Notes under the pieces: model-generated
Databases searched by the model: none
Seen by the model: only the letters and a program-made list of their open reading frames with translations
Told to the model about the DNA's origin: nothing
In this document: piece by piece, positions 18,551-59,055 of the stretch
Layout: every line of letters begins with the position of its first letter
How positions within the stretch are numbered: the first letter of the stretch is position 1
Translations under genes and position numbers: made by a program
From: a bacterium
GTDB lineage: Bacteria; Hydrothermota; DG-26; JAUXAN01
Length of the DNA: 64,000 nucleotides
Direction of reading: 5' to 3'
Assembly: GCA_030619885.1 (NCBI GenBank)
Contig: JAUXAN010000006.1
Span: forward strand, 1-64,000

Positions 18551-18751
18551 TAAAAACATAAATTTAAACCACAGATTACACAGATTATCACAAGATTTTT
18601 CTTTTTACTTCTAATGCTGCCCCCATAATTTTTTCCATACGGATTCTGCCATACGGTTCGTATGGGCGGACAGTTCTTTATATAATCATTTTTCATTATC
18701 CTCTTGTGTAAATCTTGTGAAATCTCGTGGTTCCATTTTTTGAAATCACTA
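18551..18751. repeat. Long dispersed repeat (R3 copy 1) carrying a nested family A element
   Basis: The sequence matches 55482-55626 over both flanks ('AAAAACATAAATTTAAACCA' on the left, 'TCGTGGTTCCATTTTTT' on the right). It contains an extra block around 18616-18671 with 'CCATACGGATTCTGCCATAC', absent from the other copy. The outer arms form an imperfect inverted repeat. Confidence 0.7.
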
Positions 18752-18771
18752 ATATATTACCATAATATTTT

Positions 18772-18853
18772 GCGAGAGGAGGGATTTGAACCCTCATCCC
18801 TTTCAGGACTGGATCCTAAATCCAGCGCGTCTACCAAGTTCCGCCACCCTCGC
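18772..18853 (-). tRNA. tRNA-Leu (anticodon UAG)
   Basis: The minus strand folds as a class II tRNA. The acceptor is GCGAGGG paired with CTCTCGC, the anticodon stem-loop is CTGGA-TTTAGGA-TCCAG giving anticodon UAG, a long variable arm follows, and the T-arm contains GGTTCAAATCC. CCA is not encoded; the next base (18771) supplies discriminator A. It decodes CUN leucine codons. Confidence 0.95.
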
Positions 18854-18889: not shown

Positions 18890-19265
18890 GGAAAATCGAT
18901 ACGCTTAAAGCGTATCAGATTTTCCTGACCCCACGTCTTATAGTTCTTTGATGGGGTCAAGGAAAAAAGAAAACCGCAGAGGCGTAGAATTCACTGAGAG
19001 TACACAGATAACCGCAGATTAAGTCCTGTAGGGAACAGGCATGCCTGTTCCCTACAGGACTTTGCAATTTCCCAAGTGACATTACGAGCCCGTCCCTACG
19101 GATCCGTATGGATACGGGCGAAGCAATCTTAAATTATATTACGAGATTGCCAAGCGAGAATACGTAATGAAACTATAAAAGTAGGGTCTATCGCAGACCC
19201 GTATGGGAAGACCCTGCACTACCTTCTTTTACACTTTTGAAGCGTTGACCCCAAACACAAACAGA
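18890..19265. repeat. Gene-free repeat block with a perfect 42-bp palindrome
   Basis: About 375 bases without a gene. In order: an inverted repeat 'GAAAATC...GATTTTC' at 18892-18925; a TGACCCCA/TGGGGTCA pair; family C words ('CCGCAGAGGCG', 'AACCGCAGATTAA'); a perfect palindrome at 19021-19062 (half-site 'AAGTCCTGTAGGGAACAGGC'); a family A copy at 19092-19113 ('GTCCCTACGGATCCGTATGG') inside CCCGT/ACGGG arms; and 'GGGTCTATCGCAGACCC' near 19184. It lies between the cyclic-nucleotide-binding gene and tRNA-Leu. Confidence 0.75.
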
Positions 19266-19955
19266 CTATTTATCTACCTTTTTAGATTTTGCGATGTATC
19301 TTTTCAATTTGGCATCAGTATCTCTCATCCTTCTTGAAAGGATTGTCGCAATGTTTTTTATGACTACGGCTTCTATGTGCGGACTCACCTTGACCATAGA
19401 ATTGAAATCAGATTTTTTGAGCACTACGACGTCCGAACGGTGAACACACTTTATCGTTGCCGAACGGGGAGCTCTATCAATGAATGCCAATTCACCAAAA
19501 ACTTCCTTCGGTTTGAGGGTATGAATGGATGCTGGTTCTTTTATTCCTCTCATCTTTATTAAAACATCTGCTTTTCCATCCAGCACTGCATACAACTCAT
19601 CTGCCTTATCTCCCTGAGAGAAGATGACCTCGTCTTTTTTGTAATATTCTTTCCTACAGCAAGTTGCAAGAAGTTCAAATTCTTCTTTTTTGAGACCTTT
19701 TAAAATAGGGATACCTTCGAGTTCTTGCACGGTTACGACCTTCCTTGCCTCCTCTGCTTGGATCTCCATCGCTTCTTGAATCTGTTTTTTTGTGACCAGT
19801 TTCTCTTCAAGTAGCACCTCTCCCAATTTCCTCCAGCGCCCCCACTCTAACATCTCTGCTGAACGCTGCCTCTCCAGCGCCAGATTGAGTCCTTCAACAC
19901 CAATAATACCCCTATCTACTAATATCTCACCTAATAAACGTTTTCTGAAAAGCAT
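19266..19955 (-). CDS. Cyclic-nucleotide-binding protein with N-terminal MshEN/T2SSE_N-like repeats
   Basis: The 229-aa protein starts with two short repeats ('LLGEILVDRGIIGVEGLNLAL', 'LGEVLLEEKLVTKKQIQEAM') that resemble the N-terminal module of GspE/MshE ATPases, a fold able to bind c-di-GMP in MshE. A CRP-type cNMP-binding domain follows at about 75-210. Its phosphate-binding cassette reads 'FGELAFIDRAPRSATI', with the Glu and Arg that contact cyclic nucleotide in the family. No DNA-binding domain follows, so it is probably a sensor or adaptor. AAGGAGG precedes the ATG. It is a possible receiver for a nucleotide made by the cyclase-like pair at 33.6-38.7 kb; that link is inference. Confidence 0.82.
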   Translation of the reverse strand: MLFRKRLLGEILVDRGIIGVEGLNLALERQRSAEMLEWGRWRKLGEVLLEEKLVTKKQIQEAMEIQAEEARKVVTVQELEGIPILKGLKKEEFELLATCCRKEYYKKDEVIFSQGDKADELYAVLDGKADVLIKMRGIKEPASIHTLKPKEVFGELAFIDRAPRSATIKCVHRSDVVVLKKSDFNSMVKVSPHIEAVVIKNIATILSRRMRDTDAKLKRYIAKSKKVDK

Positions 19956-47692: not shown

Positions 47693-47714
47693 GTCCATAC
47701 GGATCCGTAGGGAT
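47693..47714. repeat. Family A repeat abutting a start codon
   Basis: 'GTCCATACGGATCCGTAGGG' plus two bases ends immediately before ATG 47715, so the palindrome forms the translation-initiation region of the TPR gene. Confidence 0.65.
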
Positions 47715-59033: not shown

Positions 59034-59055
59034 GTCCATACGGATCCGTAGGGAC
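59034..59055. repeat. Family A repeat
   Basis: 'GTCCATACGGATCCGTAGGG' plus AC, flanked by CAAGG and AAAAT, is one of the cleanest copies of the palindromic core. Confidence 0.65.

Follow-up and report, generated by a model that had tools for sequence, protein, structure and literature searches.

A perfect 42-bp palindrome in a Hydrothermota genome as a putative double-foot member of a cross-phylum family of repetitive extragenic palindromes

The closest described counterparts of the element considered here are the repetitive extragenic palindromes (REPs) of the TnpA-Y1 transposases of subclass 2.4, for which Quentin et al. (2018, PMC6006769) reported "double-foot" REPs of the form GT[AG]G...C[TC]AC, REPs lying within the tnpA genes between the HuH and Y motifs with the frame preserved, and a patchy distribution consistent with loss. 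We analyzed a 64-kb window (positions 1 to 64,000 of contig JAUXAN010000006.1, assembly GCA_030619885.1) from a metagenome-assembled genome (MAG) of the phylum Hydrothermota (2.46 Mb, 86 contigs, 97% complete). A preliminary description had drawn attention to a perfect, spacerless 42-bp palindrome at 19021-19062 (AAGTCCTGTAGGGAACAGGCATGCCTGTTCCCTACAGGACTT), and the sequence indeed equals its own reverse complement, with arms of 21 + 21 bp and a spacer of 0. Judged by its sequence, this feature is a double-foot GTAG REP of the known subclass 2.4 kind, since both the class and its in-gene arrangement have already been described; it is probably a solo copy mobilized in trans by a Y1 transposase of that subclass, a REP-associated tyrosine transposase (RAYT, or TnpA-REP).

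The 42-mer is the longest perfect palindrome of the window, the runners-up having 13- and 12-bp arms, and perfect 21-bp arms are expected by chance about 3e-8 times per 64 kb at 40.7% GC. Its symmetry breaks off sharply at both edges (gatt-AAGT... and ...ACTT-tgca, lower case lying outside). Only the inner 28 bp (halves GTAGGGAACAGGCA/TGCCTGTTCCCTAC) are common to other copies, which leaves arms exceeding the family norm by 7 bases per side, and the half-site plus its neighbouring CCT (CCTGTAGGGAACAGGC) has no second exact occurrence in the host genome. The 28-bp core (GTAGGGAACAGGCATGCCTGTTCCCTAC) was found there in 33 copies at ≤3 mismatches (16 exact; reversed control 0), with flanks unrelated to one another, as befits a REP, a palindrome of 20-65 nt dispersed in many copies per genome. 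GTAG, the GT[AG]G expected at the 5' foot of a REP hairpin, begins both strands, and the core ends in CCCTAC, carrying at its 3' end the foot complement C[TC]AC that defines a double foot. Save for its longer arms, the window 42-mer is a fairly ordinary one among these ~33 copies.

Beyond the host, a scan with one genome per species returned the exact 28-mer in at least 110 contig stretches from many phyla, including MAGs of Omnitrophota, Goldiibacteriota, FCPU426, Firestonebacteria, Desulfobacteraceae, Chloroherpeton, Ignavibacteria, Spirochaetia, Cloacimonadota, Patescibacteria, and others, and several of these genomes carry 13-48 copies (≤2 mismatches). Most of the records are metagenome-assembled, and single odd taxon assignments may be binning errors, which could hardly account for the overall spread. 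No copy was present among 2.9 million viral contigs, and such contigs were dropped as a candidate vehicle of transfer.

These copies bear directly on what had been proposed for the palindrome. The preliminary description had asked whether further copies exist, and the host genome holds 32 more; it had also considered an assembly inversion artefact, and chimeric reads can indeed yield perfect palindromes, here in an assembly of 86 contigs. However, the 32 copies in unrelated flanks, the exact matches in assemblies made independently from many phyla, and the sharp end of the symmetry at 21 bp, beyond which the flanks show no further inversion, make an assembly or fold-back artefact highly improbable. 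The suggested recent origin is borne out in part only: a perfect copy from a repeat family that has expanded is a sign of recent spread. As for the nuclease SbcCD, whose presence had been posed as a question, an SbcD-like phosphoesterase adjoins a Rad50-type ATPase in the host genome (an SbcCD/Mre11-Rad50-like pair), so that an SbcCD-type nuclease is probably present, the score of the phosphoesterase (39.5 bits) falling short of the curated cut-off (77.65). A length of 42 bp would lie below the size range of strong SbcCD-dependent instability. The argument that SbcCD should destabilize such a palindrome fails at this size, the instability studies in E. coli having used far longer palindromes (e.g., 460 bp, PMC4245961).

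Several copies lie within coding genes. In the host, these encode a glycerate kinase, a GltD/NfnA-like oxidoreductase, and a YkuD-like protein; in each the frame is read through and the gene is apparently intact. Relative to distant solved homologues, the first two have ~5 and ~7 extra residues, a weak comparison given that loops vary, and for the YkuD-like gene the alignment covered only parts outside the insertion. In-gene copies were also found in the repair genes for endonuclease IV and, by our own reading, RecJ. A repeated operator of a dimeric regulator would typically be a short perfect palindrome as well, but identity over 28 bp in unrelated phyla is rare for operators, and both the copies in coding frames and the occurrence of the same 28-mer within transposase genes leave a regulon-wide operator very little probability.

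The link to Y1/HUH transposases comes from the other genomes, in which the same REP, or a variant, lies in frame inside such genes, between the HUH and Tyr motifs, and sometimes beside them; the encoded proteins carry the motifs NH[IFV]H, WQ, and YIxNNP. There the 28-mer is translated as VGNRHACSL and the variant GTAGGGAAAAGGC as VGKRHAFSL. The idea that REPs inside transposase genes might be new was rejected, the arrangement being already in PMC6006769. In 22 of the 36 distinct genes that have both an HUH and a WQ motif, the stretch between the two holds a perfect palindrome (arms ≥9 bp). The cores of these internal palindromes vary from gene to gene, and a flanking palindrome shares the core of the internal one in 7/11 genes having both (shuffled mean 1.3, maximum 5). 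E. coli TnpA-REP (4ER8) was the single solved relative found, and the closest NCBIfam model, again a REP-associated tyrosine transposase, scored under its cut-off. By profile search, 25 of the 147 genomes from the host's phylum encode relatives of these transposases.

On these grounds we infer that the transposase mobilizes the 28-bp REP in trans. A single-stranded REP, as on the lagging strand, would fold into a hairpin with its GTAG foot, and the HUH enzyme would recognize and cut this hairpin and join the REP elsewhere without a target-site duplication; because the palindrome is perfect, both strands would be equivalent substrates. The host copies look like orphans because no full-length cognate transposase is detectable: it may have been lost, it may be absent from the assembled genome, or a different one among the host's 14 Y1 proteins may act on them.

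Several observations weigh against mobilization by a cognate enzyme. In the 97%-complete host genome, the only trace of a cognate tnpA-REP, which is usual in the same genome yet not strictly defining, was a weak 35-residue match in another Y1 gene, and none of the host Y1 genes examined has a 28-mer palindrome nearby; the Omnitrophota genome nzgw329, with 48 copies, likewise lacks a full-length cognate. Many transposase loci show the internal copy only, without a matching flanking one, and a preference for YY 5' of GTAG is weaker in the host (28% of flanks) than in the other genomes (58%, P = 0.002). Other Y1 genes of the host have flanking palindromes that differ in sequence from the 28-mer (L056, 1452-1474 and 2278-2306; L015, 743-764 and 1253-1274), so that several REP or terminal-inverted-repeat systems probably coexist in this genome.

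To describe arms and target sites, we compiled 191 distinct perfect double-foot copies and took expectations from permutation of their flanks. Arms lengthened by at least 6 bp were found in 9 of the 191 (0.2 expected), a count that one Leptospiraceae locus (L164), supplying 3 of the 9, could inflate, and that stands at 6 versus 0.2 without it; the permutation led us to reject chance as the source of long arms. The extension sequences vary from copy to copy. Direct repeats of 3-8 bp were not in excess in the 191 copies (2 bp: 16 versus 9.8 expected), i.e., the target-site duplication of a classical miniature inverted-repeat transposable element of a DDE transposon is absent. Symmetry of the arms is preserved: among copies with two mismatches, the change is symmetric in 11/25, compared to ~0.3 expected, 3 of the 11 being one G150 variant. 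Such double changes are compatible with copying from one arm to the other, which is known for inverted repeats generally (PMC8604942, PMC8794818); inheritance from source copies that already carried the variants would look alike.

Where the window copy is longer by 7 bp on each side, our best guess is fold-back (template-switch) copying, by which one flank would have been copied onto the other, most likely during or after insertion. Another possibility, to which we give less credence, is that the REP landed in the middle of a 14-bp palindrome already present there, AAGTCCT/AGGACTT (AAGTCCTAGGACTT), with no later extension; single-strand transposition could favour hairpin targets, and the window copy has no empty site for comparison. 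The only strongly lengthened copy for which close relatives are available argues otherwise: in a glycosyltransferase gene of MAG CSMAG_1921, the palindrome copy is extended by 9 bp, and none of 11 aligned relatives (74-86% identical) is palindromic at the insertion site. There the site spans 14 residues including the palindrome, compared to 17 length-conserved residues in the relatives. In the endonuclease IV gene of the same MAG, the palindrome occupies a shortened loop (~10 residues versus ~15 in several relatives), and the closest relative has a degenerate GTAG...CTAC palindrome with a different core in the same loop, as if this loop were a repeated landing site. In these two genes, for both of which close relatives could be compared, ~45-50 nt seem to have given way to the palindrome, most relatives having no such palindrome there; this is only suggestive, as coding sites are biased by selection to keep the frame open. 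We tentatively propose that double-foot REPs, instead of inserting cleanly, replace a short target stretch and that a minority then lengthen by flank copying, the window 42-mer being one such grown copy; this scheme is offered as a possibility that we hold doubtful.

The palindrome sits between two genes on the minus strand (Table 1), and RNA folding of its region gives -38.2 kcal/mol, compared to -13.2 (SD 2.7) for shuffles. Its position ~204 nt beyond the stop codon of the cyclic-nucleotide-binding-domain gene (19266-19955), together with this very stable fold, would suit a hairpin kept by selection as an RNA element of that gene, a 3'-end stabilizer or terminator-like structure, and REPs elsewhere are thought to act so (PMC3733652). 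The terminator scan (stem followed by a T run) gave no match at the palindrome even though other nearby hairpins matched, and an Rfam search likewise gave none at this position. Copies of the family lie inside the glycerate kinase and GltD/NfnA-like oxidoreductase genes, and the family as a whole is therefore no terminator. We regard maintenance as an RNA element as unlikely, and it would be compatible with a REP origin.

Table 1. Positions of the palindrome, its parts, and the neighbouring genes in the window
Feature	Position	Strand	Basis
Perfect 42-bp palindrome, spacerless	19021..19062	.	Self-complementarity; RNA fold of the region
28-bp double-foot REP core GTAGGGAACAGGCATGCCTGTTCCCTAC, GTAG foot on both strands	19028..19055	.	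Host copies and cross-phylum exact copies
Left arm extension AAGTCCT, private to the window copy	19021..19027	.	Absent from other copies; extended arms over-represented in the family
Right arm extension AGGACTT, private to the window copy	19056..19062	.	Absent from other copies; extended arms over-represented in the family
tRNA-Leu gene, neighbour	18771..18853	-	
Gene for cyclic-nucleotide-binding-domain protein, neighbour	19266..19955	-	PF00027, E 5.4e-19

Two further repeats were observed in the window. Another palindromic repeat, CATACGGATCCGTAGGGA or its complement, has three window copies at ≤1 mismatch (19093-19110, 47696-47713, and 59037-59054), one of them 31 bp from the window REP, and similar pieces lie close to several REP copies genome-wide. 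An intergenic phrase, ACCGCAGATT, often accompanied by ACAGATTA, occurs in the window at 18568-18577, 19011-19020, and eight further places, and stands shortly before several REP copies in the host genome.

Collectively, a cross-phylum, transposase-linked hairpin family accounts for the striking palindrome, an assembly artefact being made unlikely, and the excess of extended arms, like the apparent replacement at two gene sites, speaks to the open question of how REPs disseminate. Among known systems, the palindromic elements of Rickettsia are alike in being palindromic repeats that insert into reading frames and are translated along with the gene, but they are longer, belong to one clade, and have no known link to a transposase. 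Nearer are the GTAG-tagged REP families 1-24 of Di Nocera et al. (2013, PMC3733652), which are likewise dispersed repeats of 20-40 bp with a GTAG terminus and some copies inside genes, including repair genes; as described, their GTAG is unpaired and present at a single end only, whereas in the window family GTAG pairs with CTAC. Nearest are the subclass 2.4 REPs (PMC6006769), with whose transposases the protein motifs NH[IFV]H, WQ, and YIxNNP agree; the present family differs in its perfect 28-bp palindrome with a core identical across phyla, in its orphan state in the host genome, and, for the window copy, in the 7-bp private arm extensions.
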